Source: Chloroflexota bacterium (GTDB taxonomy: Bacteria > Chloroflexota > Anaerolineae > Anaerolineales > Villigracilaceae). Taken from it: a DNA stretch of 64,000 nucleotides. Position 1 is the stretch's first letter; each line of letters begins with the position of its first letter. The DNA lies in the NCBI GenBank assembly GCA_016223135.1, contig JACRPQ010000013.1:62001-126000 (forward strand), written 5' to 3'. Both the position numbers and the translations under genes were made by a program. Below the pieces are notes generated by a model. It was not told where the DNA came from and searched no databases. It saw only the letters and a list, made by a program, of their open reading frames with translations. Positions 40,045 to 63,036 of this stretch are shown one piece after another.

Positions 40045-40072
40045 ATCCCCCATGCCAATCGGCGTGGGGGAT
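40045..40072 (+). promoter_or_regulatory. Intercistronic hairpin before the methyltransferase-helicase gene
   Basis: ATCCCCCATGCC and GGCGTGGGGGAT form a 12-bp stem (one wobble) with a 4-base loop, followed by TTTTCATTTCAAG and then AAGGAG. Confidence 0.6.
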
Positions 40073-40096
40073 TTTCATTTCAAGAAGGAGATTGGT

Positions 40097-44082: not shown

Positions 44083-45282
44083 CTATGGGTTTGAACCCGC
44101 AGCATCTTCTATTCGCTTCATCACTAGACTGATAACTACCAGTTGGTCGAGAGCCTCATAAGGACCAATCTTTACCCATTCTTTATCTTTGGGTTCATGC
44201 CCTTTTGGATGTCGGAAAGCCATAAAAACTCCAATTCCCAAATGACCATAACCTCTCTGTTCGTTTTGTTGAGAACGATAATCTGGCGATGTTGATTCGA
44301 GAGGATTAAGTCTTATCACAGGTTTTAGATTTTCATCTTTGGCATTCGGATCGCCCAAAATCTTTTTCACAGCCTGGACCTCAGTAATATTAATGTCGCC
44401 CGAACATTTTCGAAGAAAATCGAAAAAGACTTTGCAAGCCTCAAAGACGGCACTAAAGTAACTGCCGTTCTTGAAATCTTCCTCGGCTATTTTTCTAATA
44501 CTGGGATGCAATGGATAAAAATCAAACAGCATTATAGGGTCAGGTCTGCTTGTTTGCTGCATCAGTGCTTCATAGAGCAAAACCAATTCCCACTCAGATA
44601 AAATCCGTCTGGTGTCGAACTCCTCCGCCTTATTGAGTAAGATGGTGTCAGAAATGCTTTCAAATTGTGACCAGTACTGGCTTTTATCAACCTTTTCTCC
44701 ATATCTTTCTGACCACCATAAAATAACAAGGGTGTCCGTTATATCAACTGGTTTCAACAAGGGTAAATCAATTTTCTCTCCCAGTTCTCTAAGCGCGGCG
44801 TTGAATAGCATTTGCCTCGCAACAGAGCCTTTGACGTGTGAAGAAATGTCGCTGATCAGAGTCTCTCTCGCTTCGCTGCTCTCCAGCGCGGAAGCACCCA
44901 GCGCCATTAGGAAAACCTGTTCTGGAAAGCGGAACGGTGAAAATCTATCGTCCTGACCGACACTCAATTCTTGGAGCATCTTTACGGTCTTTTCCACATA
45001 CGACTCGCTTATCGAGAGTTGAAGGTGTTTCCGAAGCCAGATGAAAAAAAGCAAAGGACCGATATTGCGTTTGTATACCCAGGCAGACTCCTCCTGAACC
45101 CAAGAATCCAACCGCTGAAGCACATCCTGAAGCAACAGCGATTGCGCCCCTCTTTCATGAGCGAAAGCATAAGCCAGCCAGGAGGCTACGAAAGGGTCCC
45201 ATTCCTGGTCAAGTTCGTTTTTGCGCACAAGCAAGGCACGCTTAACGTCTCCGCGGTATTGAAGTAGGTTTAAAGAAACCAT
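44083..45282 (-). CDS. Ymh/HEPN-like domain effector protein
   Basis: The 399-residue protein is the last gene of the leftward defence operon. Residues 1-250 are helical and unrecognised. The C-terminal domain (about 250-395) matches the Ymh family (TIGR02391): PLHPSIRKIA, then NGSYFSAVFEACKVFFDFLR and an R-x4-H motif (RHPKGH, residues 357-362) like that of HEPN ribonucleases. HEPN domains cut RNA in toxin and abortive-infection systems. The start overlaps the Argonaute-like gene by 13 bases, so the two are coupled. The likely role is a toxic RNase or sensor released by the Argonaute; this is inference, not shown. Confidence 0.7.
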   Translation of the reverse strand: MVSLNLLQYRGDVKRALLVRKNELDQEWDPFVASWLAYAFAHERGAQSLLLQDVLQRLDSWVQEESAWVYKRNIGPLLFFIWLRKHLQLSISESYVEKTVKMLQELSVGQDDRFSPFRFPEQVFLMALGASALESSEARETLISDISSHVKGSVARQMLFNAALRELGEKIDLPLLKPVDITDTLVILWWSERYGEKVDKSQYWSQFESISDTILLNKAEEFDTRRILSEWELVLLYEALMQQTSRPDPIMLFDFYPLHPSIRKIAEEDFKNGSYFSAVFEACKVFFDFLRKCSGDINITEVQAVKKILGDPNAKDENLKPVIRLNPLESTSPDYRSQQNEQRGYGHLGIGVFMAFRHPKGHEPKDKEWVKIGPYEALDQLVVISLVMKRIEDAAGSNP

Positions 45283-46568
45283 GCTTTGTCCGCCAGCAAG
45301 CCCAGTTGGGCTACATGTTGACTCCAGGTGTCAACGCCTATCTCGGCAATCAAATCCGCAATCAAGCGGGAATAGTTCAACGTGGCCGGCACCGATTGAG
45401 CATTAAAGCCGCGCCAGTTTACAGCAACAAATTCATAAACCTGTCGCGTCAATCGTTGAAATTCGCTTATCGGCAGCGTTGACCGGGTGTCAAAGCCAAT
45501 TTCAAACAAGCGGGGGACACCCCTGCGGTTGCGAGTTTCTTCACCTGTTCGGAAATCTCGCTTGCGACCATCTAGAAAGAGCAAGGCACTCGTTTCAGAA
45601 AGGTTTACTTTAATACCAGGTTGAGGAACGTAACTCGCATGTGCAGTGTCGAACAGATGATAACTGCTGTATTCGTTCAAGTGGAGAATGGCATAGGGAA
45701 TATTTGCGCCCAGCAATTTCATCGCTTGCTCTGCTGCATAGAACTCGCGGAATTTCCCTGGCTTTTTACACAGGTGTATCACGATTTCATCAGGTTGTCG
45801 GTTTAGTTGAGTATATTCACGACACGCCTTCACGATAACGCTTGCCAGCGACTCTTGATACGCTTCCCGATTTTCCCAATAAACTGGCTGGGGAGCAATG
45901 CTCGAAAAGAACAGGTAATCTCCATCGCTGCTGAAAAGCGTAACGAAACCGACTACCATTCGCTTTTGTTCGTCCTGAGCGCGGCTTATGCCTAGCACCA
46001 GGCTCTTTTGTTTCTGCGAAGACAAAACTGTCCAGGGTGTTCCGCCAATTTTGGCGTACATTTGTAGCGCAATGTTTTCAAGTGTCCAGGGCAATTGAGA
46101 TGGATTGCGGAGTTTTTCCTGCGTAACAAATTGGCTGGGGATGCCAAGACCAATCAAAATGGACTTGGCGCTGGTATAGAAGGCAGGGTTGCGCGTTGAA
46201 GCCAACAGAAGCACGATGTCCGGCTGGGCGTCCCGAACCAGGCCACGAATATTTTTATCCAGTTGCTCCGGCGTTTCTCCTGGAATGCCGCGTTCACCAC
46301 AAATGGTTAACGGAATCCGAAACAATTTGTGAAAGCCCGCAAAAGACCCGTTCCCGTTTTGCAGACCGCCAACGACGGTTTGCTTCGCGCCTTGTAGATT
46401 TGCGGGGTAAATCACCAGACAGTTCACTTTGTCTTTTCCCAACGTCATCGCATCGTATGGACCATAGTTCTGGATGCCGCGGCGTGGATAGTAATCCCGT
46501 TGACTGAGGGAGGAAGCGCTGAATCGCAAAGCCGGGGCTGAAAGTTTTTCGCCAACAAAATACAGCAT
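45270..46568 (-). CDS. Truncated, catalytically inactive prokaryotic Argonaute (MID-PIWI), AfAgo-like
   Basis: The 432-residue protein carries the Argonaute signature KIGGTPW (residues 173-179), PYAILHLNE (291-299), VNWRGFNAQSVPATLNYSRL (383-402) and a C-terminal WFL, as in Archaeoglobus AfAgo, where the end of the chain helps bind the guide 5' end. The RNase H-type tetrad is lost: GIS replaces the first GxD, IVIHLC the second region and NYS the last. It is a MID-PIWI protein of about 430 residues without PAZ or N domain. The ATG is preceded by GAGGTAAGGT. Its neighbours supply the missing domains and a probable effector. Confidence 0.85.
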   Translation of the reverse strand: MLYFVGEKLSAPALRFSASSLSQRDYYPRRGIQNYGPYDAMTLGKDKVNCLVIYPANLQGAKQTVVGGLQNGNGSFAGFHKLFRIPLTICGERGIPGETPEQLDKNIRGLVRDAQPDIVLLLASTRNPAFYTSAKSILIGLGIPSQFVTQEKLRNPSQLPWTLENIALQMYAKIGGTPWTVLSSQKQKSLVLGISRAQDEQKRMVVGFVTLFSSDGDYLFFSSIAPQPVYWENREAYQESLASVIVKACREYTQLNRQPDEIVIHLCKKPGKFREFYAAEQAMKLLGANIPYAILHLNEYSSYHLFDTAHASYVPQPGIKVNLSETSALLFLDGRKRDFRTGEETRNRRGVPRLFEIGFDTRSTLPISEFQRLTRQVYEFVAVNWRGFNAQSVPATLNYSRLIADLIAEIGVDTWSQHVAQLGLLADKAWFL

Positions 46569-46579
46569 ACCTTACCTCG

Positions 46580-47317
46580 CTACAAAATCACAGGAAAGGG
46601 AACGGATTCCAATTGCGCCTGTCCACCACACGGCAAAAGGAAAGTGTGAAACTCCTGAGCAAATGGAAGCAGATAACTGTGCATGCGTATTTGGGAGATT
46701 TGCAGGTTGAAGCGGGTTGTGCCGCGCAGGAATTCTTCCTGAACGACCAATGCTTCGTTTAGCGCGTTTCTTGCGCGCATTTGCGGCATGTTGAGTGGAG
46801 TGCCGTTTTCATCCTGATAAGCCCAGGTTGCGTCCACAACCAATCCCAGGGACTCTACAGCAGGGTAATAAGCGCAGCGTAAATCATACCCGGCGAAAAC
46901 TTTGACCTTTCCCTGTGTTGTTATCCCCTTTGGAGACAGTTGAAATATCTCCGCTCTAGCATCAAAACCCTTCGGGGAAATTTTTCTTCTTTGCCAAAAG
47001 CCTTTGGATAAGGCTGATGCAATGAGTCCCTCCAATACCACACGTGCGGCGAGCACAGGTGTGTCCTTTAGAAGCATCTGGCTCTTCTCAAAGCCCCTGG
47101 CTAACAGAAATGTGACTGATTCCTGACCGTATCCGTACACGCGGTCGTTATGGGCGTACACGGAAACCTGTGCCTGTGCGCTGTCTATTTCGTTCCTCAA
47201 TGACCGCAAGTCAACGGCTTTTGCCCGCGAGGTGACCATCACCTGCACAGGCTCATCAGGCAATATCACCGGGAAAATGTTGGTATAAATGCCGGGTTGT
47301 AATTGCACTTGGCTCAC
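46580..47317 (-). CDS. Argonaute N/L1/L2-domain-like partner protein
   Basis: The 245-residue protein is encoded directly before the MID-PIWI gene with a 11-base gap. It contains FAGYDLRCAYYPAVESLGL and VVDATWAYQDENG, the kind of segment seen in N/L1/PAZ-proximal parts of long Argonautes. In Archaeoglobus a separate N-L1-L2 protein (AfAgo-N) forms a heterodimer with the MID-PIWI chain, and the size here fits that. The GTG start has GGAGG seven bases upstream. An APAZ-like origin is an alternative. It lacks nuclease motifs. The 136-base gap to drmB may contain its own promoter. Confidence 0.6.
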   Translation of the reverse strand: MSQVQLQPGIYTNIFPVILPDEPVQVMVTSRAKAVDLRSLRNEIDSAQAQVSVYAHNDRVYGYGQESVTFLLARGFEKSQMLLKDTPVLAARVVLEGLIASALSKGFWQRRKISPKGFDARAEIFQLSPKGITTQGKVKVFAGYDLRCAYYPAVESLGLVVDATWAYQDENGTPLNMPQMRARNALNEALVVQEEFLRGTTRFNLQISQIRMHSYLLPFAQEFHTFLLPCGGQAQLESVPFPVIL

Positions 47318-47453: not shown

Positions 47454-49334
47454 TTATTCAAAGAAGGCAATCTTAGCATTACTTATTGTACCTATCAGCA
47501 CTGCCCTATCAAGGTATCTGTTTCCCTTTTCACACGATGTTTCAGGGGCAAAAGTACAGGCATGGCAGGCTGCAGCGTGTAGGGTCGCGTTTCCATACTC
47601 AGGTTTATGCTCGGAGCATGTCGGATCGGAAGTGCAAAGAGTGGCGGCCTCCAAGGCGGATTCTATGTGATAACCCAATAATTCCGGCAAGCCCAGATTG
47701 ACCAAGCCGCCGAGGGTCCCTTCGCTGTCTGGCGCTGAAGTGTAAAGTAGAATGCCTGCCATGGGGCCGCCATCGTCTTCCGGGGCACGGGAATAAATCC
47801 TCTCTCGAATGCTGGCTTGTGTATAACCACTTTCCAGGATAATCTGTCTCATCAAGATATGACTGAATGTGTGTAGAAGTATATAACGCATTCCTGGGAA
47901 GTTGGCAGATGGATTTGAAAAATTGCGCATCTTGCGCCATTCTTTGTGCGCGGCAAAAAAAGTACGTTCCTGTTCTTGCACCGCCGGCCTCGAAAGCCAG
48001 GATTGAATCTTTGATTCATCGAATTGGATAAAAATGCCTTCTCCGCGCACCTCGACAGCAGGAACCCAATTCAGTTTTGAGCGGCTCAACGGTGCGGTAT
48101 CAATTCTTTGTTCCTCATCGAGTTCATCCAATTCACCGGGAGAATCGATTCGGGTAAAGCCGGCCAATGCTTTTACTTCTCTTAGGCGATCAGCCAACAC
48201 AACCTTCGAAATCAAAAATCTGTATTTTTCAGGAGCAGGCATTTTCCTGATCTGGAAATCTGTTGACCTTAATTGATCGTTGCCGGATGAAAACGCAGCC
48301 CATTCGGGAAGCACGAGATCTGGATATTGTTCTACTTCTTCATTGACTGCACGGGATTCCTTTTTGCTTTTGATGATCTCGAGAATTTCCTCCAGGGAAC
48401 ACCCTGCAAAGGACTTAAGATCGCCTCTCTTCTGAGCATACTTGAGGGCGTCCAGACTATCAACGTCATTTAGTATTCCCCAATGATCATCCACCAATAC
48501 AGATAATTTATCGGTGGTGGCGGGAATGGCAATCGTACTCAGAATCTGTGGAAACCACAGGTTGGACGCGCCCAATAGAATAGGGCGCATTTTCAGGTTA
48601 CAGCCATCGGGATCATAATCATGCAAATGAGGTCTTCGGGCGGTGCAAACAGGCATTTTTTCGCGATTGTCACGCCCAAATGCTTCCGCCATTTGACGAC
48701 GAATTCCACAGGTCTCACATTGGATGAACAGGTCGCGCGCTTCGCCCGAGGGACCGTATTCCTGCAGGGTTATGCTGGGAGTTCCTGAACAGAGTTTCTC
48801 GCCAAAGTAATGGACAAACTCCATCCAGGGAAAATCGTCCAAATGACCCTTTTCGCACGCTACAAGAAAACGGGCGGGTAATGCCGTTGGAGCCTTGTTT
48901 TTAGCAAACTTGCAGTTTGCATGAGCATAACGTGTCCGATCTGGGCGATAACGATTTGCGTGGAGTTCAAATAGATTTGTGTCCAGTGATGCCAAGGTCC
49001 GGCATGCCGGGCAAACCATCCATTTGGGAAATGTTCCCACAGGTACGCCGATTAGGGCTTCCTGCTCCAGTGGGTTGACAGATTGATCTGGGCTGGAAGG
49101 CAGGGAATACATCCTTTGGATGTGCGGACCAATCGCTGCCCTCAAACCGAGCAGGAGTCGATCTTCTTTTATCTCGTGAACGTAATTGGGATCCTGTGTC
49201 CAGTCATCCAATCCAGATACGATGACCGAAATTTGAGGTAAATCCACGATCGCGCCAACACCAAAACTGTAAAGCAACTGGCTTGGATTCAGTTCTCCAA
49301 CGCGGAAGTTGTTGGGATAATTATTGGGTGTCAT
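47454..49334 (-). CDS. drmB: DISARM protein DrmB (DUF1998)
   Basis: The 626-residue protein begins VGELNPSQLLYSFGVGAIVD, the family start. It contains zinc pairs (CPACRTL, CETCGIRR) and a C-terminal DUF1998 block (LLHTFSHILMRQIILESGYT, GGPMAGILLYTSAPDSEGTL) ending with a Cys-rich segment (CSEHKPEYGN, CHACTFAPETSC). DrmB forms a complex with DrmA in DISARM and is proposed to sense or engage invading DNA. Its start overlaps the drmA stop by ATGA. It is the core component that identifies this operon as DISARM. Confidence 0.9.
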   Translation of the reverse strand: MTPNNYPNNFRVGELNPSQLLYSFGVGAIVDLPQISVIVSGLDDWTQDPNYVHEIKEDRLLLGLRAAIGPHIQRMYSLPSSPDQSVNPLEQEALIGVPVGTFPKWMVCPACRTLASLDTNLFELHANRYRPDRTRYAHANCKFAKNKAPTALPARFLVACEKGHLDDFPWMEFVHYFGEKLCSGTPSITLQEYGPSGEARDLFIQCETCGIRRQMAEAFGRDNREKMPVCTARRPHLHDYDPDGCNLKMRPILLGASNLWFPQILSTIAIPATTDKLSVLVDDHWGILNDVDSLDALKYAQKRGDLKSFAGCSLEEILEIIKSKKESRAVNEEVEQYPDLVLPEWAAFSSGNDQLRSTDFQIRKMPAPEKYRFLISKVVLADRLREVKALAGFTRIDSPGELDELDEEQRIDTAPLSRSKLNWVPAVEVRGEGIFIQFDESKIQSWLSRPAVQEQERTFFAAHKEWRKMRNFSNPSANFPGMRYILLHTFSHILMRQIILESGYTQASIRERIYSRAPEDDGGPMAGILLYTSAPDSEGTLGGLVNLGLPELLGYHIESALEAATLCTSDPTCSEHKPEYGNATLHAAACHACTFAPETSCEKGNRYLDRAVLIGTISNAKIAFFE

Positions 49335-52300
49335 TCCTGAGGTTCCTCCCCTTCCACAATCTTTACTGGGGTTCTTAGCTCATAGTTGTTCAAGATCAAA
49401 GTCACAGGAGGCTCGACATCCCGCAAGCTGGTAAGACAGGTAAACATATCTTTTTCCCTGCCGGGTGGAACCAGCAATCCTATGGTATGTCCATCATTCT
49501 CTGTTTTATACCCAAGCGAGCCCCCGCCCCGCGAGATTGTTGTAGCGTTCGCAAGCCAGTTCGAGATTCGAAGATTGAGTTCTTCGCGGATGATTTCTTC
49601 CAATTCAGAATTGAATGTAATATTGGCTGCCCGTTGGCTGATTTCGTTCATGGCGCGAATGATGAAGTCGTGTCCTGCCTTCAACGAGCCTGCATCTCGA
49701 TTACCGTTGAACTTATCACCCAGGAGGCGCACATAAGAGACCAGCAAAGCGCTCAAGCCGCGATCCATGGCGCGGGCGGAAAATGGCGTGACAGAAAGCG
49801 GCTCCACCTGTTGATACAACGTAGCATGATAATGTTCGAAACGCTCAAAATGGCTTAGATCGCGTGGGCGCACCCAGTTGTATACGGTACAGACCAGACC
49901 CGGGAAACGACGCCCGATACGGCTGGTGGCTTGAATGTATTCAGCAGTGTATTTCGGTTGACCTGTAACCACCATCAATCCCAGTCGCGGAACGTCCACG
50001 CCGACCGAGATCATATTCGTGGCAAGAAGAACGTCGATCGGTATTTCTGAGTAATCAATCTTTTCCTTGGTCTTGGATTTCGTCTGTCTTTCTTTTTCCG
50101 TGTTGGGATCGAAGACCGCATTCAAGCGATCCAGGGTTTCAGGAATATCGGTCGCGCCAACACGAGATGTTAATTCCTTAATGCTGTTGGTATGGAACTT
50201 TCTGTTTTCCATGCCGCGTTTGTCCATTTGACGCAAGCGAGTGCTAATCGCGTCGTCCACAAGACGCCTTAGCCCACCAAGCTCACGCATGGCGTTGAAG
50301 TAACCGATCAAGGTCATGTAGGGATCGGCTGCTCCTCCGTATTTTTTATAAAGGAATTGCGCAGCGGACAAAAAGGCGGAATAGACGCGGATCATGACAA
50401 CTTTTGCCTGCACGCCTGGAGCACAAACTCCAAAATACAAACGCCCTGGAGTCTCCTCTGATGGAGAGATTTGACGCGAGAAGAAGTTATCCTCGATATC
50501 CAAGCCTGAGGGCGGGAATATATTGGCTTTCCGCATATATAGCGCATGGACCTGTTCGGATGCTCTCCGAATGGTTGCGCTGGATGCAATCACTTTTGGG
50601 CGTACGATCTTGTGTTGATACTCCCATGTGGAGAGACCATCTATAGCCGTTTCGTACAAACCAACCAATGTCCCCAGTGGACCGTTGATCAAGTGAAGTT
50701 CATCCTGGATAATCAAATCCGGCGGGCGGAGCGGACCGCGTTCTTCGCTCTTAACGGCAGGCAGACCGCTCTGCTTATGTGCAGGGTGGGATTCGGAATC
50801 ATCGATGTCCGGGGAGCGAAAGCCATGCCGCGGGCAATAAGCATTGACTTTGCCAAAAAGCATTTGCACTTCGCCCTTCCAGGGCATTTGGGCAAATTTA
50901 TCCACGGTTGCTATCAACAGGGAAGGCAGGCGACGATAGACTTCTTCGTCCACAACTACCACGGGGAGTCCTTCCCCCTTCGCATTCCGTTCATTGAACT
51001 CACATTTGGATGATGGACAATACACATAGGTACGGCCTGCGCCAGCCTTAAACGTCTCGACCTGAATATCTCGACCAGGGATTAAGGTCTCGCCACACCA
51101 AGGGCAGTTGGTTAGTTGATGAGGTGTGCCACTGCCGCCGATTGCCGAACTGCGAAAACTTCCCCCCCGTCGATATTCCTTGACAACCTGATCGCTCTCA
51201 TCCGTCCAGTTTGGCGTGCTGCGCATACCGATCCACAAACCGATGCGGAAGGGTTCGTTCCCCCATTTTCCGATATCCGATTTACGAATCAGTTCGCACG
51301 CACAGATCAAGGCAGTAGCGCGTTGGAATTGTTGCAATGTCAGCAGGCGCAACGTGTAACGCATGAGGACGGTTACTCCAGCGCTGCCATCATATTCTCC
51401 CATCCTGCCTTGTAAACGGCGGATGGCAAGTGTGAAGGCTGTGAGCCCCAAATAAGCTTCTGTTTTTCCGCCGCCAGTGGGGAACCAGAGAACATCGGCA
51501 ATCGCAGAGGTGGGATCACTTCGTTCGGGATGAGTTGGATCCACCATGCCAGGAAGGTTGATCAGGATAAAGGCAAGCTGGAACAGGTACCAGGTCCGAT
51601 TTTGAGGCGTGTCAATTTCCTCCAGTGTTTGGTTTTTCTTTTGCCTCACTGATAAGGTATACAAGGAGTGAACACGTTGCTGCCACATGGCGCGATTGGC
51701 AAAGCGGAAGGCATCCGCCGCCTGCGGATTTGTATCCAACAGGGCAATCGCATTCTCGAGTCGGGAAAGTATCCGCTGACAGTTTTCGACGACCGTTTTG
51801 GCTTGATTAGTATAGGGCTGTAGGTCAGGTACGGGTGAAATAGCGCGGGCTTGAATTGAGTCGAGCCAAATGCGGTATGCAATCAAAAGAGGAGAAAGTG
51901 CAACGCTGAATTGACCATCGGGAATCTCGGACAGTGTCTTCATATCCAATACAACACCTTTGAGACCAGGTACATCATCGGGATCGGGCGCAATGGTCTT
52001 GGGAAGTTCGTAAGTCGGCGCGGTATCCGTTTTGATACGCACGGCGCGATCAAAACTGCCCTCCAGCAGTTCAACATGGGTGGCGACTCCGTGACCCACC
52101 GCAAACTCAACTTGCTTTCGATACACCATTTGCATGGCAAGGTCTTCTGGATTTGCATCGCCGCGGACATTCATGCGGCGGATGAAGATTGGCTCGCCGT
52201 CTGGAGCTTCGACAGTCAACTCGGGTTGGAATATCCACGCCGTATCCTTGAGTTGACGCGGCTCCTGCTGTCCATTGACCAAGAACAAGGTGATTACCCA

Positions 52301-52825
52301 CTGATCGGCAATCCGCCGAATGCGCCCATCTATATAGACATCGGGAAATTCCTGGTCTGGAATCCATCGGGGGATACGTCCTTCTTTGATGGGGATGGGT
52401 TCGCTGGAGGCTTCGATTTGCTTGCGCTTCCAAACAGGCTTGGGTGGATCGAGATCCAAGCCGAGTTCGGCGCTGGGAATTCGGTCATAATGCCCCCATC
52501 GAGCAGTGACTACAATTTCGCTGGCTTCAGGCGCGATCGTAAACGTCATTCCCATGGAGGATGGCAACATGGTGCGTCCTTGCACGTTGACAGGCTCGCT
52601 CTTGCCATCTTCTCCATCAGTTCCATCGAAAGCAAGGTCTTCATCCTCTTCGGGCAGGGGAGTTTGTCCTTTGGGCGCAAGCAGACCCAATATGTAACGA
52701 TCCCGCACAGTTTGTTCGGTGATGATCTCTTCTGGACCGTTTGCAGGACCAAGAAGGTCGCGCATGACAATTTCGAGCAATTCTTGTCGGATCTTTACTG
52801 GTGTAGCGGTAAGCGCATCTGACAT
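49331..52825 (-). CDS. drmA: DISARM helicase DrmA
   Basis: The 1164-residue SF2 helicase has Walker A (FPTGGGKTEAYL), a DExH box (IIQDELHLI), motifs LLATNMISVGVDVPRLGLMV and QATSRIGRRFPGLVC, and a Cys cluster (CPWCGETL, YCPSSKCEF). DrmA is the central DNA-translocating helicase of DISARM and binds DrmB. The start at 52825 is favoured by GAGGAAACGAA before the ATG; the ATG at 52864 overlaps the previous gene but has no clear ribosome site. The order drmA-drmB is standard. Confidence 0.92.
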   Translation of the reverse strand: MSDALTATPVKIRQELLEIVMRDLLGPANGPEEIITEQTVRDRYILGLLAPKGQTPLPEEDEDLAFDGTDGEDGKSEPVNVQGRTMLPSSMGMTFTIAPEASEIVVTARWGHYDRIPSAELGLDLDPPKPVWKRKQIEASSEPIPIKEGRIPRWIPDQEFPDVYIDGRIRRIADQWVITLFLVNGQQEPRQLKDTAWIFQPELTVEAPDGEPIFIRRMNVRGDANPEDLAMQMVYRKQVEFAVGHGVATHVELLEGSFDRAVRIKTDTAPTYELPKTIAPDPDDVPGLKGVVLDMKTLSEIPDGQFSVALSPLLIAYRIWLDSIQARAISPVPDLQPYTNQAKTVVENCQRILSRLENAIALLDTNPQAADAFRFANRAMWQQRVHSLYTLSVRQKKNQTLEEIDTPQNRTWYLFQLAFILINLPGMVDPTHPERSDPTSAIADVLWFPTGGGKTEAYLGLTAFTLAIRRLQGRMGEYDGSAGVTVLMRYTLRLLTLQQFQRATALICACELIRKSDIGKWGNEPFRIGLWIGMRSTPNWTDESDQVVKEYRRGGSFRSSAIGGSGTPHQLTNCPWCGETLIPGRDIQVETFKAGAGRTYVYCPSSKCEFNERNAKGEGLPVVVVDEEVYRRLPSLLIATVDKFAQMPWKGEVQMLFGKVNAYCPRHGFRSPDIDDSESHPAHKQSGLPAVKSEERGPLRPPDLIIQDELHLINGPLGTLVGLYETAIDGLSTWEYQHKIVRPKVIASSATIRRASEQVHALYMRKANIFPPSGLDIEDNFFSRQISPSEETPGRLYFGVCAPGVQAKVVMIRVYSAFLSAAQFLYKKYGGAADPYMTLIGYFNAMRELGGLRRLVDDAISTRLRQMDKRGMENRKFHTNSIKELTSRVGATDIPETLDRLNAVFDPNTEKERQTKSKTKEKIDYSEIPIDVLLATNMISVGVDVPRLGLMVVTGQPKYTAEYIQATSRIGRRFPGLVCTVYNWVRPRDLSHFERFEHYHATLYQQVEPLSVTPFSARAMDRGLSALLVSYVRLLGDKFNGNRDAGSLKAGHDFIIRAMNEISQRAANITFNSELEEIIREELNLRISNWLANATTISRGGGSLGYKTENDGHTIGLLVPPGREKDMFTCLTSLRDVEPPVTLILNNYELRTPVKIVEGEEPQE

Positions 52826-52853
52826 TTCGTTTCCTCGGGTTGCTTGGTGATTC

Positions 52854-53543
52854 TTAAGGATCATTCACATCGAAGCGATTATAGATATCTTGCATCGTTC
52901 CTTGCGCTTCTCCATTCACCTTGCGTCCTTTGAAATAAGCGACAACTTCTTTATACCCACCCCATAAGCCAAAGTCATATCTGACATCGCAAAGCGGACG
53001 TTCATGATCTGGGCAAAGACAGGACCAAATAAATCCAAGCATTTCATCCCCTGGAATGAAACGCGGTTGATTGTGGGAAGGTGCTCCTCTATCTGGAGCA
53101 AAGAGAATACTCCGAACGGTTATCTTCTTTTCTTCAAAATCAATACTGCGAAAATGCTCAGGTCTTTGAACCTCCTGCGTTGCTACAATATCCTGGAACC
53201 TTTGAGCAACTTGCTCAACTTCTTGGTCGGAGAACAAACCAATCCAACGAACAACCTTGCGAATCGATTCCAGATTGTTACGAAGAGCAGAGTTAAAGCG
53301 CAAATGTTCCTCCTGTCCTTTAACCTCACAAATCAAAACATCGGTGCGATCGCGGGGAATTTGCAGCCACGGAGATGGCTCTACTTCACGCTCGCGCTCC
53401 GAATTGTAAGGAAAGCGCACAGCCAAGATATCAATTTCAGTTAAATTGCCATCAGGCGCATGGGCAATAAAACCCGACGTGAAATACCCGTTAAGCCGCA
53501 AGTACAGCGTGGCAAGCAACTCCTGCAAATCGCTCTTATCCAT
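52854..53543 (-). CDS. PD-(D/E)XK-like nuclease or restriction-type protein in the DISARM operon
   Basis: The 229-residue protein has an N-terminal LTEIDILAVRF and then DVLICEVKGQ, i.e. the D-x(n)-E-x-K order of PD-(D/E)XK nucleases, though the core cannot be proven from motifs alone. The rest is helical and ends near a basic patch. It is inserted between drmMI and drmA, with 2 bases to drmMI and a short gap to drmA. It is not a phospholipase-D type DrmC (no HxK(x4)D). It could provide the nuclease activity of this DISARM variant. Confidence 0.65.
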   Translation of the reverse strand: MDKSDLQELLATLYLRLNGYFTSGFIAHAPDGNLTEIDILAVRFPYNSEREREVEPSPWLQIPRDRTDVLICEVKGQEEHLRFNSALRNNLESIRKVVRWIGLFSDQEVEQVAQRFQDIVATQEVQRPEHFRSIDFEEKKITVRSILFAPDRGAPSHNQPRFIPGDEMLGFIWSCLCPDHERPLCDVRYDFGLWGGYKEVVAYFKGRKVNGEAQGTMQDIYNRFDVNDP

Positions 53544-53545
53544 AA

Positions 53546-56500
53546 TTACAACAACTCCATTTGCCCATCCGTAGACTCGGATTTCTTGCTCCTCTTTCGC
53601 GCTCCACCCTCTTTCTTCTTCCCTCCCTTCTCATGCAGCCCCGCCTTGACCTCCTCCTCATACCGCTCGTGATTCAACTTCAACAGCCGTGACAGCACTT
53701 CCCGCCGCGCGGATTCGGAGATGGTGTAGCGGATTCCCTGTGCCGTCTCGTGGAAGCCATGTTCCAAATCCAGATCGCTCCAGCCATACGCGGCAGCAAC
53801 GGCATTGTCCATCTCGACATGCAACTCCCGCAAGCGGACAATGTCTGACGCGCTTTCTTTCGGGTTGTGGAAGCGGTTGTATGTGGACGTCAACCCTTCC
53901 TGACGTGCCAGCATGATTTGACGGCGATGTTCGTGATATGTTGTACCGATTTTTTCTAAACCTTCACGGTTTATTGGGAAAGGAAAAGTTTGAAAACAAT
54001 CCGTTGGAGAATATCTCAAATCCGTTTTCAAAGTTGAACTATATTTCCAAGCCCACAACTCGTGAATTGTAGATTGGAGTATAGAATATGAAGCGCCATC
54101 TTCATACGCAAAAACTACAACTTGGTCAGATAGGACCCAGTCTTTAGGCACAAAGCAAGGCGCATGAGTTTTGGACACACGAGCCCTAACAATCACTTTT
54201 CCAAGATTGTCTGTGGCTTTATACAACTCTGAACGTAAATTCCAGAACTTCCACCATTCATATACCATACGGGGATATTTTTTTGCGTCTTTTGTGGCAC
54301 GTTCAGGATACACATTTTCTTCTACTATTTGAAAACAATCAGGATATTTTTGCGCTTGTTCCTTCGTCATTTCCCCGAAGTTAATAACCCATCTTCGTGG
54401 AGATTGGTCAAAACGGCTATTTAGATCCTCCCCGTTTAGGTAAGGAAACAGAACCTCTTGATTGCGGGCATCTTTTCTTATCAAAGATAATGCTTGTTCA
54501 GGTTCTAGTATAAATCCCATGCCCAAAACAATAGATCCCTGAAAACTCTTTTTGTCATTTTTCTCAAGACGTTTTGGTTCTCCTAAAGAGACGGTGCTGT
54601 CAAGAAGTGTAGAAATAAACTCAACTGGTTTTTGGTCTAACAATTTGTGACCGTTATAAGTTCCCTTGAAAATGTGAACGATACTTACATAAACAGCAGC
54701 AATGCCTGGCCATTCATAGGTATTCACCGCATAGTAAATATCACCTTTATTGTTCGAGATGTGCTCAAGACCTGCCATTCGGGTATCGCCTTGAGCAATT
54801 GTGTTTGTTGCTATAAGTCCTAAAGTACCTTTCTGCCGCAAAAAATCAAATCCGCGCAAAAAGAAGTAGGAACATAAATCCGCACCACCAGAAGACGAAG
54901 GGTACAAATTATGCAAGGCACTGACATATTTTTCGCCGTACTGTGCAAAAATATTTCTTCCGCCCAAAAAAGGCGGATTTCCAACAAACGCACTAAAACC
55001 ACCATTTTCAAACACTTCGGGAAATTCAAATTCCCAATGAAAGGCACGTTCTTTCTTGGCAACATTCAAAGCACGGGCGGCATCGGGATGTTTTCCTATA
55101 TCAACGACTCCATCCAATTCACCTGCCATATAAGGGAACAACAAACCCAATTGCAATTCCTCAATCTCGTTATCGTTCAACCCCAACAAGCGTGCGCCCG
55201 TCAACAGGTCACAGCCGCGTTTGACGTGCTGCATGGCGGCGTCGGCTTCCTTCAACAGCGCGGCTTTCAACTCCGAGTCGCGCACGTCCTTCACTTCAAA
55301 GGCTTCCAGTTCGCGCCGTTTCTGGCGGGCGGTCTCCAATTGCAGGCGCAACTGCTCATCGAACAAGGTCATCGCCGCGTCCTTATAGCCATGCGCCCAG
55401 CGCAAAAAGTCATCCGCGCTCGCGCCTACCAGCGAGTCCCCGCACTTCAAGGCGTGGTCAAGGAAACTGAACGGGCGTCCCTTCGCCATCGTCGTCAGCC
55501 ACAGCGACAGTTTGGCGATCTCCACTGCCAGCGGGTTCTTATCCACCCCATAGAGACAGCGATCCGCTACCAGCCGCCGCGCCAGGATCATCCGCTCGTC
55601 TTCATCCTTTGGCAGCAGCGTCTCGCCTGGCAAACCTTTTGAAGGCTGACCCTCGGGCGTGATTTGAATCCCGCCCTCACTAGCAGTCGCCCACGCTTCC
55701 ATCAACCGCTCAGCAAGATAACGATCTGCCTGTACCAGAAATCCTGCCGAGCCCATCGCCATATCGCAAACTTTCAATGAGAGAATTTCAGCAGGCGAGC
55801 GTAGTTTCCATTCCTCGCGCGGCAATCCCTCCGCAGGTCCAATATAGACCAGCGGCTCCAACGTGTGTTGCACAATCGGTTCAGTCAGGCTGCGTGGTGT
55901 GTAATGCGTTCCTGTCGCCCGTCGCGTCACTCCGGCCGTCACGTACACACTTCCAGGCAGGAACACCGCAGGCATCCCAAAATCGTCCTCACGGATCAGC
56001 CCCGCAAATGGCAGTACCTGCTGAAAGACCTGCGGATCATTTCCACACGCGCTTTTCAAATGCTGGATTTGGAGGGAATCCAACTCTGTGGACAGACTCC
56101 GCTTGATGGCGTTTTCCGTGCGACCCGTGTTTTCCGCCAGATATTTGGCGAATCGCTCTGGACCCTTTGCCTGCTCGGCGGATAATTGAGAGAGTCCAAT
56201 CTCGGGCTCGCGGTCGCGCGACCCGACCAGTCCCAGAACAACTTCGTTCGCCCGCACCGCCGTATGATCGAGCAAACCCTCATAGACGTGCCCGATCTGC
56301 TCCACATCCAGCGAACGGAAACTCAAACGCCTCGGCTCCTTCCCGCCGCCAGGCACAGGCATTCGCAGGTTTTGCAGCGCCTCCAGCAAATGCAACACCG
56401 TGCGGTTGCTGATTGGTAACGGAGTCTCCTCCTCGCTCTCCCCTCTCCTTTTAGGAGATCGCGAAGCATCCCGAGTGTTTGCCGAGGGAGGGTCGGGGGT

Positions 56501-57643
56501 GAGGTGGGTGAGGGCAGATCTCCCCTCCAAAAACGGAAACCGATTAGGATCGAACAGACTCCCACCATACGCAGGCAATCGCAATCGGTCATGTTGTATC
56601 CCACCATACACCGCGCGGAAGGTCGCCAGCAATCTGCACCACGCATCGAAGCGACGTTCCAACACCTCTTCACCATGTTGATCGGCGATCTCGCGCAACT
56701 GTGCCCGCAACGTCGAAACGGCATAATACTGGTCATACAATGGGTCGCCCAGCAGGAGCAGTCCGCGTTCTTCTGCCGAGAACAGGAAGACCAAGCGCAT
56801 CATCACCGTCAACGCGGCTTCGTACAACTCCGATTCGCCAATGCCCTGCAACAACTTTCGTCCACGGTCCTGGTCAGCGCGGTCAATCGAGCGGATGAGC
56901 ACCTCCACCGCATGCCGCACTTGATACCCCAACTGGTCGGTAACTTCCTGCTGTTCATTGACGCTGTCAGCGAGCATGCCTTCCAGCGTATCTTTATCCT
57001 GCACGGAGAAGAACCGCCGCGCGCTCAACAGGCTTCTAAACGAACGTAAGGTCAGCGGCTCCTCGAACCACAGACTCGCATACCAGGAAACAAATGCAGA
57101 TGTCTCGCCGCGCGCAGCGTCCACCAACATCCACTGCTCACCGTTCGTCACCAACCCCAAGCGGACTCCCGTTGCCCGCAGCAACTCCATCATCCGCATC
57201 GCAGGCGAAGCCTTCCAGCGTTTCTCCGCCACCGTCTTGTCCAGGTTTTGACCGATAGAATATACCTGCACCAACATACGTGGATTGGCAGGATTCTTCG
57301 GCTCATGCAGGACCAGATCAGGTGACAACGTTTCCCCATGTTCGGCAAAGGTCACTCGCAACGTCGGCGGGGTTGCTATCCCCTCGGCAATCGTCTCATT
57401 TGAAAACCCGAGCAAACGCTCAAGCACATACCGTACCCAAAGCGTGTGGATCGCGGGATCGGGACGCAATCCCTGCTGGTCGTCCAGCCACTCCTCATAT
57501 GCCAGCCGCGCTTCACGGCTCGTCTCTGCATCATGCGCTTCCAATCCCTGTGGAAATACACGCATCAACACAGGCAGGCTCAGGAAGGGACCTGAAATAT
57601 CAAGCAGGGATAACCATTCGTTGTGATGTTTCGCGATGGACAT
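53546..57643 (-). CDS. drmMI: DISARM class 1 adenine methyltransferase DrmMI
   Basis: The 1365-residue protein is an N6-adenine methylase: THYTPRSLTEPIVQHTLEPL, motif I CDMAMGSAGFLVQADRYLAE, GVDKNPLAVEIAKLSLWLTT and motif IV FVGNPPFLGG, with a C-terminal target-recognition-like half. In DISARM the methylase marks self DNA so that it is spared. Residues 374-408 (HLTPDPPSANTRDASRSPKR and beyond) form a low-complexity insert that looks like a translated genomic repeat. The gene is two bases from drmD and two from the nuclease-like gene. Class 1 is indicated by this adenine type. Confidence 0.88.
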   Translation of the reverse strand: MSIAKHHNEWLSLLDISGPFLSLPVLMRVFPQGLEAHDAETSREARLAYEEWLDDQQGLRPDPAIHTLWVRYVLERLLGFSNETIAEGIATPPTLRVTFAEHGETLSPDLVLHEPKNPANPRMLVQVYSIGQNLDKTVAEKRWKASPAMRMMELLRATGVRLGLVTNGEQWMLVDAARGETSAFVSWYASLWFEEPLTLRSFRSLLSARRFFSVQDKDTLEGMLADSVNEQQEVTDQLGYQVRHAVEVLIRSIDRADQDRGRKLLQGIGESELYEAALTVMMRLVFLFSAEERGLLLLGDPLYDQYYAVSTLRAQLREIADQHGEEVLERRFDAWCRLLATFRAVYGGIQHDRLRLPAYGGSLFDPNRFPFLEGRSALTHLTPDPPSANTRDASRSPKRRGESEEETPLPISNRTVLHLLEALQNLRMPVPGGGKEPRRLSFRSLDVEQIGHVYEGLLDHTAVRANEVVLGLVGSRDREPEIGLSQLSAEQAKGPERFAKYLAENTGRTENAIKRSLSTELDSLQIQHLKSACGNDPQVFQQVLPFAGLIREDDFGMPAVFLPGSVYVTAGVTRRATGTHYTPRSLTEPIVQHTLEPLVYIGPAEGLPREEWKLRSPAEILSLKVCDMAMGSAGFLVQADRYLAERLMEAWATASEGGIQITPEGQPSKGLPGETLLPKDEDERMILARRLVADRCLYGVDKNPLAVEIAKLSLWLTTMAKGRPFSFLDHALKCGDSLVGASADDFLRWAHGYKDAAMTLFDEQLRLQLETARQKRRELEAFEVKDVRDSELKAALLKEADAAMQHVKRGCDLLTGARLLGLNDNEIEELQLGLLFPYMAGELDGVVDIGKHPDAARALNVAKKERAFHWEFEFPEVFENGGFSAFVGNPPFLGGRNIFAQYGEKYVSALHNLYPSSSGGADLCSYFFLRGFDFLRQKGTLGLIATNTIAQGDTRMAGLEHISNNKGDIYYAVNTYEWPGIAAVYVSIVHIFKGTYNGHKLLDQKPVEFISTLLDSTVSLGEPKRLEKNDKKSFQGSIVLGMGFILEPEQALSLIRKDARNQEVLFPYLNGEDLNSRFDQSPRRWVINFGEMTKEQAQKYPDCFQIVEENVYPERATKDAKKYPRMVYEWWKFWNLRSELYKATDNLGKVIVRARVSKTHAPCFVPKDWVLSDQVVVFAYEDGASYSILQSTIHELWAWKYSSTLKTDLRYSPTDCFQTFPFPINREGLEKIGTTYHEHRRQIMLARQEGLTSTYNRFHNPKESASDIVRLRELHVEMDNAVAAAYGWSDLDLEHGFHETAQGIRYTISESARREVLSRLLKLNHERYEEEVKAGLHEKGGKKKEGGARKRSKKSESTDGQMELL
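56420..56520 (-). repeat. In-frame repeat-like insert in drmMI
   Basis: The segment contains the palindrome-like CTCCTAAAAGGAG and TCGCGA-rich text and translates to a Pro/Ser/Arg low-complexity stretch with no relation to the flanking methylase. Such Pro/Arg/Glu-rich readings are typical of interspersed palindromic repeats that have entered genes in frame. The methylase frame is preserved. Confidence 0.4.
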
Positions 57644-57645
57644 AG

Positions 57646-60600
57646 TTATTTCGTCAACTTTTCAGGTACGAGGAACGTCACAGCCACAGGGAACATCCTC
57701 GGTTGCGGGTCTGCGAAACGTTTGCGGATTTGTTCCTGCTCCGCTTTGATCTCATTCGGGATTTCCTGCAATCGTCGGCGCAAGGCATCCATGTTGCGGT
57801 TCAACTGATCCTTCTCATCAGTAGAGAACAATTCCAATTGAAGGACTTCAGGTTCATCCAGTTCATTTTTGATTGCCTGCGCCAGTTCATTGAGGATCGC
57901 TTCGATGTTTTTTGTTTCCATTTCGGCGCGTTCATCGAGCAGTTTTTGTACGCCATCCATTCGGTCTGCCTTGCGTGCCTCCAGCGACTGCATCAACTGA
58001 GGCATGATCTTTTCATACATGCCCAGAAGTCGCTCCCGCATTTCTTTTGAAGGCTCGGCTTCCGTTGCGCTTTCCAGCGCCCTGGCAACCTGGCTCACAT
58101 TCATCCTTGAGAAGCGCCCCTCTCGCAGGACGCCACCCGCCGTAATGATTTCTTCATGCAGGCGATATTGATCCCCGCCGATCACCACCAGTCGCGCATG
58201 AGCGACTACAGCAGGCGTATCCAGCACAGCATCAGGCACCAGCCGCGACGTGATTCTATGCAAACCCTTCTTGCTTCTCGGTGACCAGACCTCTGCCCGC
58301 AGCAACCGTAAGGACATCTGCACCAGTTTGTGATTGAGGTGCGCCAGCACCACATCGTCCCGATCCTTGACCAGGTTTTGATCGAAGACGATTGGGCGCG
58401 TTTCCTTCGTGTGCGGGTGAACCAATCCCTTCGTAGACTCCGCCCAACTACCCGTCAAAGCGGGCAATTCGAAAACGGGGCAGGGTGCATTGTGGTCGGA
58501 TTTCCGCGTCCACAGCCCCTCGACTTCTGTTTCGATGAGCGGTCTTTGCCCTGCAAGTTCCAGGGCGGTTTGCACCACCGAGGCGATATTCTCGGATGAA
58601 AAGTTCAGATCGCGGCGCGTTTCTTGAAGCTGTTCCATGTGGCGGGCAATTTGTGCGCGTAAATTCCGTTCGAATTTCAAGACGCGCCGCACAGGTTCGC
58701 TGTCTTTCTCGGCTTGCTCGGTCTGCAATCGGGTGCGCCTGCCGAGCATGGCTTCCTCCACTTGCGCAGCGATGACGGGACCCACCTTGCCCAAATCCTC
58801 CCTGATTTGTTCCACCTTGCGAACAGCAACCATCAAGAATTCCAAGTCTGCATCCAGCACATCTGTGGGAGTATTCCAAATCTCCGTTTGTCTGCTGTAT
58901 CCCTTGCTCACAAAATGATACACAAGCACGTTTTTCTTTTGTCCATGACGGTCGAGGCGTCCGTTGCGTTGTTCCAGACGATTTGGATTCCATGGGATTT
59001 CCATGTGGATGATCTGATGACAATGGTTCTGCAGGTCGATGCCTTCGGAGGCGGCGTCGGTGGCAAGCAGGATACGCACAGGGCTTTTGTCGGGCGCCGT
59101 TTGGAACGCTGCCTTGATAGCCTCGCGTTTGTCGCTTTCCATGCCGCCATACAGGGTCATCAACCTTCCCTCTTCCGTGAACCCTTCGATTGCCAGAATA
59201 TGGTGAAGCCAGTTCAGGGTCGCGCGGTACTCGGTAAAGATCACGACCCGTTCATCCGTCCATTTGCCATCTCTCTTGATGTTTTTCCTGAGCCAGTTCA
59301 ACAACTCGTTCATCTTGCTGTCGGGGCGGCGTTCTGCTTTCTCTGCCCAGGTAAGCATCTTTTTCAACAAATCTTTCTCTTGCGCGCTTAGTTTCGGTAG
59401 TAATTCGGAAGCGGTTGCCAGTGCATCGCCTGAAACGTCTTCATCGTCGGTATCTTCCTGCTCAGCCTGATCCAATTGCTGCCGCAGGATCCCAAAATTC
59501 ACTCTTGGTTTCTTTTGAGCGTCTGTTTTTCGTACAGCATTTAATGACCTTTCGTGCTGCTGTAGCGTGCTCAGAAAAGCGGCAGGCGACGAAAACAGTC
59601 TCTTCTTAAGCAGTTTCAACACGAACTCAGTTGCATATTGCTCGGTCGTATCCCTGGTGTTCCTTTGACGGAGCTCCGAATACTCTCTCAGCCAGTCATG
59701 AGCTTCGCGCTCTTCTTGTGTGTAGGGAACTTCAATCGCCTGAATCTCCCGCTTTGGGAATCTCGAAGTTCCATCGAACAGGGGCGGCAGTTCAGACTTC
59801 ATCCTGCGCACCATCACAGCCTGTAATTGCTGGCGGTCGGGCGTCACTCCCCTTGCAAATCGTTGGTCGTCGAGCAATTCCAAAAGGGCTGAAAAACTCT
59901 CCTGGTATCCGTTATGGGGGGTAGCCGTCAGGAATAACTTATGCTCAAAGTGGGGAGCCAGCATGCGAATCGCCTCCGTACGAAGGGAGTCGGTTGCATA
60001 TCGCCCGCGGCCCACTGGCGCGCAGTTGTGCGCCTCGTCCACGATCAAGACATCAAACTTGCGTGGATATTTTGATTCGCCCTCCGCGGGCAGCAACTCT
60101 TTTAGCATCCTCATCGAGCGGTCGCGCTTGATAAAGTCAATGGAAGTGATCAGGCGGGGAAAATGGGACCATGGATTCGTATGTAGTCCCCGCGTCCTGC
60201 GTAACTCACGCATCAAGTCCGAGTCCACGATTCTGAATTCCAGCCCGAATTTATCCCGCATCTGGTCCCGCCACTGGATCTGCAGGGACGAAGGGCATAC
60301 AATAAACACCGTTCGAGCGCGATTGCGAAGCAGTAGTTCCTGCACGATCAAACCTGCTTCGATTGTCTTTCCCAGTCCAACATCGTCGGCGATCAACAGA
60401 TTAGCACGCGGCATTTGCACAGCGCGAACCAGCGGGTCAAGTTGATAATCCTCGATTGTGATGCCGCTTCGAAATGGGGCTTGCAACAAGCGGGCATCCG
60501 CCGACGAAATGGCTCCCCAACGAACTGCATTCAAGAAGGCGTCAAATCTCCTGGGCGTGTCGAAACCTGTTGCCTCTGGCAGACCAACGCGTTCGTCTAT

Positions 60601-60804
60601 CCGCGCATCTGGTTCGATTTCCCAGACCACTTCCAAACTTTCCCCCAACGCATCATCCTCGATGGAATTCAATGAGATAAGATGCTGTGGCTGTTCAGTA
60701 ATATCAGCCAGCGCGCTTGGTTGTACGCCAGCCACCACAAATCTGTGCTGCCGCACCGCTACTATTTGACCTTGCTCGGGGATTTGTTTATTTGACAGTT
60801 GCAT
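57646..60804 (-). CDS. drmD: DISARM class 1 SNF2-like helicase DrmD
   Basis: The 1052-residue SNF2/RapA-type ATPase has motif I LIADDVGLGKTIEAGLIVQE, motif Ia CPSSLQIQW, DEAH box (VLIVDEAHNCAP), FLTATPHNGYQES and C-terminal motifs LLATDAASEGIDLQNHCHQI and EQRNGRLDRHGQKKN. Adenine methylase and DrmD together define class 1 DISARM. The long C-terminal part is coiled-coil rich. The gene starts the DISARM set; about 130 bases lie between it and the upstream fragment, room for a promoter, though none is convincing. Confidence 0.9.
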   Translation of the reverse strand: MQLSNKQIPEQGQIVAVRQHRFVVAGVQPSALADITEQPQHLISLNSIEDDALGESLEVVWEIEPDARIDERVGLPEATGFDTPRRFDAFLNAVRWGAISSADARLLQAPFRSGITIEDYQLDPLVRAVQMPRANLLIADDVGLGKTIEAGLIVQELLLRNRARTVFIVCPSSLQIQWRDQMRDKFGLEFRIVDSDLMRELRRTRGLHTNPWSHFPRLITSIDFIKRDRSMRMLKELLPAEGESKYPRKFDVLIVDEAHNCAPVGRGRYATDSLRTEAIRMLAPHFEHKLFLTATPHNGYQESFSALLELLDDQRFARGVTPDRQQLQAVMVRRMKSELPPLFDGTSRFPKREIQAIEVPYTQEEREAHDWLREYSELRQRNTRDTTEQYATEFVLKLLKKRLFSSPAAFLSTLQQHERSLNAVRKTDAQKKPRVNFGILRQQLDQAEQEDTDDEDVSGDALATASELLPKLSAQEKDLLKKMLTWAEKAERRPDSKMNELLNWLRKNIKRDGKWTDERVVIFTEYRATLNWLHHILAIEGFTEEGRLMTLYGGMESDKREAIKAAFQTAPDKSPVRILLATDAASEGIDLQNHCHQIIHMEIPWNPNRLEQRNGRLDRHGQKKNVLVYHFVSKGYSRQTEIWNTPTDVLDADLEFLMVAVRKVEQIREDLGKVGPVIAAQVEEAMLGRRTRLQTEQAEKDSEPVRRVLKFERNLRAQIARHMEQLQETRRDLNFSSENIASVVQTALELAGQRPLIETEVEGLWTRKSDHNAPCPVFELPALTGSWAESTKGLVHPHTKETRPIVFDQNLVKDRDDVVLAHLNHKLVQMSLRLLRAEVWSPRSKKGLHRITSRLVPDAVLDTPAVVAHARLVVIGGDQYRLHEEIITAGGVLREGRFSRMNVSQVARALESATEAEPSKEMRERLLGMYEKIMPQLMQSLEARKADRMDGVQKLLDERAEMETKNIEAILNELAQAIKNELDEPEVLQLELFSTDEKDQLNRNMDALRRRLQEIPNEIKAEQEQIRKRFADPQPRMFPVAVTFLVPEKLTK

Positions 60805-63035: not shown

Positions 63036-63036
63036 A

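Follow-up and report, generated by a model that had tools for sequence, protein, structure and literature searches.

A split long-B Argonaute, predicted inactive, and a HEPN-type effector encoded beside DISARM and other methylation-based operons

The trio and its proteins

The window is the whole stretch of DNA that was analysed: 64,000 nucleotides (nt) from a Chloroflexota bacterium (contig JACRPQ010000013.1, positions 62,001 to 126,000 of the forward strand). It includes three consecutive genes, hereafter the trio, located directly after drmB of a DISARM operon (defence island system associated with restriction-modification). They encode the N-L1-L2 subunit (AgoN) and the MID-PIWI subunit (Ago) of a putative split long-B Argonaute, and a predicted HEPN effector (Table 1). 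AgoN lies 136 nt after drmB and Ago 11 nt after AgoN; Ago and the effector gene overlap by 13 nt. A preliminary description, made from the sequence alone, had given three coupled genes after drmB, and their coordinates and minus-strand orientation are borne out. They are real genes, since homologues of each are found in the same order elsewhere and family matches were obtained. A promoter specific to AgoN was considered and set aside: one promoter-like site is present (47512-47485), yet the stretch includes 2 such sites where 4.0 are expected.

No Pfam or NCBIfam family was found for AgoN. The best PDB sequence for a profile of 14 AgoN homologues is AfAgo-N (E 0.0027). The AlphaFold2 model of AgoN (predicted local distance difference test score, pLDDT, 90.4) gave AfAgo-N as all of its top five PDB matches in Foldseek (chains of 8old, 8olj, 8pvv and 8ok9; E 7.4e-9 to 4.9e-8, probability 1.00), followed by subunits of short-Argonaute systems and by RsAgo. 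AgoN is assigned to the N-L1-L2 subunits because of this fold match, in agreement with the N-domain-like protein of an AfAgo-N/AfAgo-type split Argonaute first proposed. A match of AgoN to a PADLOC CARF model (E 0.00038) was set aside as weak against the clear match to the AfAgo-N fold.

Ago matches Pfam Piwi (2.6e-21), PADLOC pAgo (7.5e-75) and the PADLOC pAgo_II models; its top PDB matches are RsAgo, AfAgo and EcAgo. By its PDB and PADLOC matches, it is a MID-PIWI protein devoid of N and PAZ domains and closest to the long-B Argonautes. Residues Y131, K135, Q146 and K173, which we take to form the 5′-phosphate pocket, are invariant in 14/14 homologues, and the C-terminus in this set is WFL. 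A YK-type pocket of long-B Argonautes is described in a passage of Ryazansky et al. (PMC6299218). The D1 position of the catalytic tetrad is a serine (S195 in the window) in the same 14 homologues, and none of them has D or E at the D2 position (C267 in the window). In L007 (L numbers designate loci), a long Argonaute from the same phylum that is putatively active, these positions read GID and RDG, the motifs of the catalytic aspartates. Judged on D1 and D2, Ago is predicted to be catalytically inactive with its guide pocket kept; the non-cutting Argonaute of the preliminary description is consistent with the loss of both aspartates.

The effector matches PADLOC Aga_HEPN over residues 1-394 (2.1e-98). 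A profile search of its C-terminus, described at first as Ymh/HEPN-like, gave Pfam Hypoth_Ymh (PF09509; 6.8e-19, 68.3 bits for a cut-off of 25) and TIGR02391 (6e-16, 58.7 bits for a cut-off of 39.45). Pfam found the Ymh domain only, without a fused ABC-ATPase. The Rx4-6H motif (R357-x4-H362) is kept in all 12 homologues that reach this region; the sequence of a 13th (L038) stops before the motif, at the end of its contig. Anantharaman et al. 2013 (PMC3710099) placed Ymh in the HEPN superfamily and described it as occurring in operon with restriction-modification (R-M) genes. The model of the effector has a pLDDT of 87.3.

The overlap of Ago with the effector gene was compared in 83 long-B loci. 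In the window, the TGG codon of Ago's terminal WFL provides the TG of the effector's ATG; L009 also has this overlap. The Ago C-terminus is WFL in 82 loci and WFI in 1. The tryptophan TGG and the base before it make an NTG, from which a frame of at least 250 amino acids (aa) begins in 81/83 loci (all except L044 and L049). This NTG is ATG in 59 cases, GTG in 22, TTG in 2 and CTG in none. Among 655 internal TGG codons in these genes, 24% are preceded by C and 31% by A. The lack of CTG despite this frequency of C suggests that the overlap is selected as a start site; it would couple effector synthesis to Argonaute synthesis. In L044 (Jordarchaeum; a split Argonaute of the same group), the overlapping downstream frame (L044:2246-2575) has only 109 aa and is unrelated to the HEPN protein by BLAST. 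Its effector appears to have been lost or replaced.

Table 1. Genes and features of the trio and of the adjoining DISARM operon in the window
Feature	Position	Strand	Characteristics
AgoN, N-L1-L2 subunit of split long-B Argonaute (assigned by fold)	46580..47317	minus	245 aa; GTG start, GGAGG upstream
Ago, MID-PIWI subunit, predicted inactive	45270..46568	minus	432 aa; C-terminal WFL
HEPN effector (predicted): helical N-terminal domain (~1-248) and Ymh/HEPN domain (~258-395)	44083..45282	minus	399 aa
13-nt overlap of Ago and HEPN gene	45270..45282	minus	read from sequence
DrmB	47454..49334	minus	NCBIfam NF038324, 678.4 bits (cut-off 240)
DrmA helicase	49331..52864	minus	NCBIfam NF038325, 1354.8 bits (cut-off 950)
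229-aa gene within DISARM operon	52854..53543	minus	PD-(D/E)XK-like by eye (EIDIL ... ICEVKG)
DrmMI methyltransferase	53546..57643	minus	PADLOC PDLC02643, 1750.7 bits
DrmD SNF2-like helicase	57646..60804	minus	NCBIfam NF038317, 1331.4 bits (cut-off 610)

Recurrence of the trio and its methylation-based neighbours

Frequencies refer to the best 80 of 294 Ago relatives found by a scan of the GTDB species genomes, with three plasmid loci, L009 and the window. The closest relatives (L033-L043) are from Thermanaerothrix daxensis (Ago 80% identical to that of the window), Candidatus Methanodesulfokora, Blastocatellia, Kapaibacterium (two), bacterium HR15, an Armatimonadetes metagenome-assembled genome, Zixibacteria, WOR-3, Archaeoglobaceae and archaeon HR04. 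L009, from genome G019 of the window's phylum, is a further trio locus. Genes for AgoN and for the HEPN protein accompany Ago in 12/12 other loci (in L038, the HEPN gene runs to the contig end). Recurrence, on which the preliminary description had made its proposal depend, is observed: the trio forms a unit in 12 other genomes. The next relative, L044, is split and has no HEPN gene. The haloarchaeal L030 and L047 are also split, and their effector has no BLAST match to the HEPN protein.

The pairwise identities of AgoN, Ago and the HEPN protein are correlated (r 0.90-0.91 for 66 pairs from 12 loci, the window among them; no species-tree correction). The trio is jointly inherited. It is rare in the phylum of the window: Aga_HEPN was matched in 17/400 genomes, over its length only in the window's own genome and G019, and Ago in 7/301, closely only in the same two. 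A phage-borne origin was rejected on scans of viral contigs with the HEPN protein and its alignment, which gave no match; two Ago loci, both distant, were picked up there with the Ago alignment. Among plasmids, the HEPN protein matched 66 records, none of them covering 80% of it, and the matches shown are C-terminal. Ago matched 12 plasmid records; the three that were opened are a split trio from haloarchaea and two loci with a single-chain Argonaute.

By annotation, a methylation-based operon on the same strand adjoins the trio in 11/13 loci. This neighbour is DISARM in the window, an N6/N4 methylase with a ResIII protein in L009, and HmaA, HmaB and HmaC in L041. It is a DpdE-like helicase with a IIG/DrmMI-like methylase in L033 (T. 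daxensis) and L035, the L035 methylase appearing frame-shifted. Type I genes are found in L036, L037, L038, L040 and L043, and in L039 the end of hsdM upstream and hsdS downstream. L034 and L042 make up the rest: L034 has a divergent TmtA-like gene, with 0.9 kb of sequence available upstream, and in L042 a methylase is encoded on the opposite strand. The partners swap, since the T. daxensis Ago, so close to that of the window, has neighbours of another type. The gap to the upstream gene is -1 nt in L040, 2 in L038, 3 in L036 and in L043, 21 in L041, 37 in L037 and 67 in L033.

Long-B cassettes are colinear between hsdM/S and hsdR in 15/82 loci. These are L036, L037 and L043, where the trio lies between hsdS and hsdR, and 12 of the 69 other long-B loci used as controls, which carry single-chain Argonaute-effector cassettes (L045, L063, L068, L070, L071, L075, L082, L083, L087, L092, L100, L107). 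In L063 only hsdS is visible upstream, where the contig begins. A second copy of the near-end of hsdS (42-44 codons; L036:4043-4168, L043:4002-4133) is found 10-20 nt after the HEPN gene, another hsdS end preceding the cassette. The two copies are 67% identical in L036 and 84% in L043. This suggests, for these two loci, that the cassette was inserted at the 3′ end of hsdS, the copy being a putative insertion scar.

Pfam families of the nearest open reading frame (ORF) were also counted per family, among the 25 commonest families, in the control loci. Upstream (58 of 69 loci), these include Methylase_S (7) and ResIII (3); downstream (61 of 69), HSDR_N (5) and ResIII (6). The remaining loci have no ORF, a very short ORF or the effector only.

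Two further observations concern these neighbours. The methylase gene beside the G019 trio (L009:13260-16859) has an insertion in which a DUF559 domain and, below threshold, an intein-splicing domain were matched. Contig C10 of the window's own genome encodes a second Argonaute (L011:78-8419; AlbA_2/HATPase/Piwi, 1118 aa) directly after an N6/N4 methylase and a ResIII/RE_endonuc gene (Type III-like); here again, an Argonaute is located behind restriction genes.

The operon upstream of the trio is a class 1 DISARM, with DrmD, DrmMI, the 229-aa gene, DrmA and DrmB. DrmA, DrmB and DrmD score above the NCBIfam cut-offs; DrmMI was identified with PADLOC alone. No drmC was recognised among the neighbour genes scanned. 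This gene is typically located after drmB according to an excerpt of PMC12458937; it is often absent from DISARM, and dispensable, according to one of PMC9142583. A strict phospholipase-D motif, sought as a sign of drmC, was found in at least 6 of 24 other DISARM loci. The 229-aa gene has no PADLOC family, no Pfam family above cut-off and a weak YraN match (0.0098); a search of 201 genomes of the phylum found it in its own genome and in none of the 200 others. Located between drmMI and drmA, it could encode a DISARM nuclease.

DrmB was matched at E ≤0.001 in 50/400 genomes of the phylum, including that of the window. The DrmB model found no match in 13/13 other genomes (L033-L044 and G019; most of them of unstated completeness). 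Conversely, neither AgoN nor Ago was found beside drmB in 24 other drmB loci, fetched from the 49 other matching genomes (two of the 24 have less than 600 nt of flank past drmB). The trio as a DISARM-specific module was rejected on both counts. The preliminary description had placed it in the drmC position of DISARM and had called for a co-occurrence search with drmA/drmB; the lack of a DrmB match in the other genomes searched and the 24 other drmB loci do not support this part of the proposal.

Other genes near the operon or in the same genome were noted. Upstream of drmD (61258-63170), a Prok-E2 family E gene is followed by one whose ThiF (E1-like) product matches JAB below threshold, a ubiquitin-like conjugation pair adjoining DISARM. 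The SNF2-type helicase at 40052-43417 has an N-terminal DUF6094 methylase domain and no insertion. A C10 copy (L011:11755-14964), 85% identical to it over 674 aa, carries a LAGLIDADG domain within an intein-like insertion, located at an apparent Walker A motif (by eye).

Readings of the arrangement

The preferred reading, to which a probability of about 0.58 is given, is that the trio is a split inactive long-B Argonaute with a HEPN (Ymh) effector, acting as a guide-programmed second line of RNase defence beside methylation-marking operons. The two subunits, AgoN and Ago, would probably assemble into a single two-chain Argonaute. It would load a short 5′-phosphorylated guide, presumably RNA as in AfAgo and RsAgo, and the loaded guide would pair with invader DNA. 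Pairing would release or activate the HEPN protein, which would cut cellular RNA, and growth would stop. A second-line role is suggested by the placement of the trio in methylation-based operons. Beside DISARM, with a possible exchange between the two, the trio would act when modification-based defence fails, in the pattern of PrrC with Type I restriction. It would be a mobile module that joins methylation-based defence operons of many types, not a part of DISARM proper. The logic first proposed (guided sensing that unleashes an RNase in parallel with DNA restriction) is plausible; the context points to methylation-based operons generally. The preferred reading is supported by the AfAgo-N-like fold of AgoN, by an Ago with its pocket residues intact and both scored aspartates lost, by the HEPN motif, by the correlated identities of the three proteins, by the methylation-based neighbours and their swapping, and by the putative insertion scars of L036 and L043.

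Two precedents are available in part from the literature. AfAgo-N/AfAgo shows better guide-RNA-mediated DNA binding (a passage of PMC10954474). For BPAN, a long-B system whose effector is of the PD-(D/E)XK kind, abortive infection is the mode of action, and the same may hold for the types with Sir2 or membrane effectors (sections of PMC10620215).

Several points weigh against the preferred reading. The R-x4-H loop is the least certain part of the effector model (pLDDT <50 at 358-368), and Foldseek found nothing below E 0.1 for this model in the PDB. No HEPN chain is included in the Foldseek and VIA matches shown; the VIA matches mainly cover residues 1-248 and are alpha/alpha-toroid proteins with Z up to 14.7, which is within reach of unrelated helical models. 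The HEPN assignment consequently rests on sequence families. The adjacency to DISARM was seen once and is a single case. Some gaps to the upstream gene are looser than those listed above (136 nt in the window, 124 nt in L039, about 725 nt in L009). R-M genes are also found near 17/69 other long-B cassettes. The searches of open-licence PMC literature yielded no experimental study of HEPN-type long-B systems. The remaining points concern the neighbour control: its p values ignore relatedness, several contigs are short, and the positive of L034 is doubtful, as a helicase tail matching the TmtA-like gene.

This control was a leave-one-locus-out BLAST, within 6 kb, with the neighbours of the trio as queries, against the 69 other long-B loci. 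The window, L009 and L041 are negative in it since their own genes were left out; L044, L047 and L030 (split, no HEPN match) were excluded from both sides. As run, 9/13 trio loci and 17/69 others were positive (one-sided Fisher p=0.003). For loci with at least 4 kb of flank, the counts are 8/12 and 17/62 (p=0.012). They become 8/13 and 17/69 without L034 (p=0.012), and 7/12 and 17/69 when L036 and L043 are counted once (p=0.025). Two controls are doubtful, L048 (weak helicase match) and L062 (methylase match on the other strand), and a recount gives 8/13 and 15/69 (p=0.006). The excess of methylation-based neighbours at trio loci is suggestive, not proof. Part of the signal is ordinary defence-island clustering, because other long-B cassettes also adjoin R-M genes.

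The alternative that survives best takes this clustering as the whole explanation: the trio and DISARM would be independent and their adjacency functionless. It is a serious minority possibility and is compatible with a guided RNase. It accounts for a DISARM partner seen once, with no DrmB match in 13 other genomes, and for an excess that is modest (8/13, p=0.012) over the 17/69 other long-B loci near R-M genes. It fits less well with seven loci on the same strand as their neighbour at gaps of -1 to 67 nt, the three looser gaps aside, and with cassettes that are colinear between hsdM/S and hsdR and not merely nearby.

The same colinear cassettes (L036, L037, L043 and 12/69 other loci) could instead be explained by a guard function. 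The split Argonaute, the restriction complex or both would hold the HEPN protein inactive until phage inhibition of that complex frees it, as T4 Stp frees PrrC, guides being of minor importance. PrrC provides a precedent: this HEPN anticodon nuclease is embedded with hsdMSR and acts upon restriction inhibition (parts of PMC3710099). A guard function is nevertheless unlikely. A pure guard would not need the pocket residues, which are invariant in 14/14 homologues, and a single contact surface is hard to imagine for upstream partners as unrelated as DrmB, HsdS, HsdM, HmaC and methylases.

Replacement of DrmC by the trio as the nuclease arm of DISARM would suit its position after drmB, the usual place of drmC, and a statement in PMC9142583 that DrmAB may recruit other nucleases, but is very improbable given that 12 trio genomes lack a DrmB match, that 0/24 other drmB loci have AgoN/Ago and that HEPN domains are known as RNases.

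Relation to known systems and meaning

The closest described system is AfAgo-N/AfAgo/Af1317 (Manakova 2024, PMC10954474, cited from parts of its text). It shares with the trio the order N, MID-PIWI, effector, the N-L1-L2 fold and the inactive PIWI; the match in gene order proposed in the preliminary description holds for AgoN and Ago. Af1317 differs, being called a homologue of a membrane effector. The effectors treated there have a helical and a variable domain, as does that of the trio, and HEPN is named, as a prediction, among those found downstream of both split and single-chain long-B Argonautes. A term search of the main text found no restriction, methyltransferase or DISARM context.

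BPAN, BPAS and BPAM (portions of PMC10620215) likewise combine an inactive long-B Argonaute with an adjacent toxic effector. They differ by their full-length long-B Argonautes and by their effectors (PD-(D/E)XK DNase, Sir2 or membrane protein); the word HEPN is absent from the portions covered. PADLOC Aga_HEPN, listed with the pAgo class II models, matches the effector over nearly its full length. Aga_HEPN is a detection model and not a characterised system.

Two likenesses concern the HEPN protein and R-M genes (passages of PMC3710099). PrrC is a second-line HEPN RNase whose gene lies with hsdMSR, a place comparable to that of some cassettes described here; its control is exerted by the restriction complex together with an ABC ATPase, and no Argonaute is involved. 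The trio is likened to it by role only, the 399-aa protein having no ABC-ATPase. In paraMORC-Ymh, the same HEPN family is found in R-M neighbourhoods with a GHKL ATPase as regulator, in place of the split Argonaute. The operon of the window resembles class 1 DISARM by drmD, drmMI, drmA and drmB, which adjoin the trio; it differs by the lack of a recognised drmC and by the extra 229-aa gene.

The link between Argonautes and R-M as such is not new. HsdS is given among the proteins of pAgo operons by Ryazansky et al. (PMC6299218), and enrichment of pAgo genes near R-M and other defence genes by Makarova et al. (PMC2743648), in the parts of these papers that were available. Nor is the HEPN effector new, having already been predicted (Manakova 2024; PADLOC Aga_HEPN). 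The preliminary description had held a HEPN partner attached to DISARM to be undescribed, and for this combination no description was found, as for the colinear hsd arrangement, in open-licence PMC papers (text without supplements). Within the scope of these searches, what is new is the DISARM context, of which there is one case, together with the wide range of methylation-based partners, the placement of cassettes in line with hsd genes and the conserved overlap.

A broader proposal is tentative. Methylation-based operons of several types (Type I, Type III-like, Hma, DpdE-like/IIG, DISARM) would repeatedly recruit long-B cassettes as guide-programmed suicide arms. Restriction would act either as the trigger, when it fails, or as a source of guides and fragments with which the Argonaute is loaded, and modification state and sequence sensing would make one two-tier circuit. 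The HEPN-type split Argonaute would do so most, joined in the window to DISARM.

The finding makes testable the function of HEPN-type long-B Argonautes, and the cross-talk of restriction or DISARM complexes with Argonaute-effector cassettes located in their operons. The colinear hsdM/S-Ago-effector-hsdR arrangements (15/82 loci) are simple constructs for testing such cross-talk between restriction and Argonaute.

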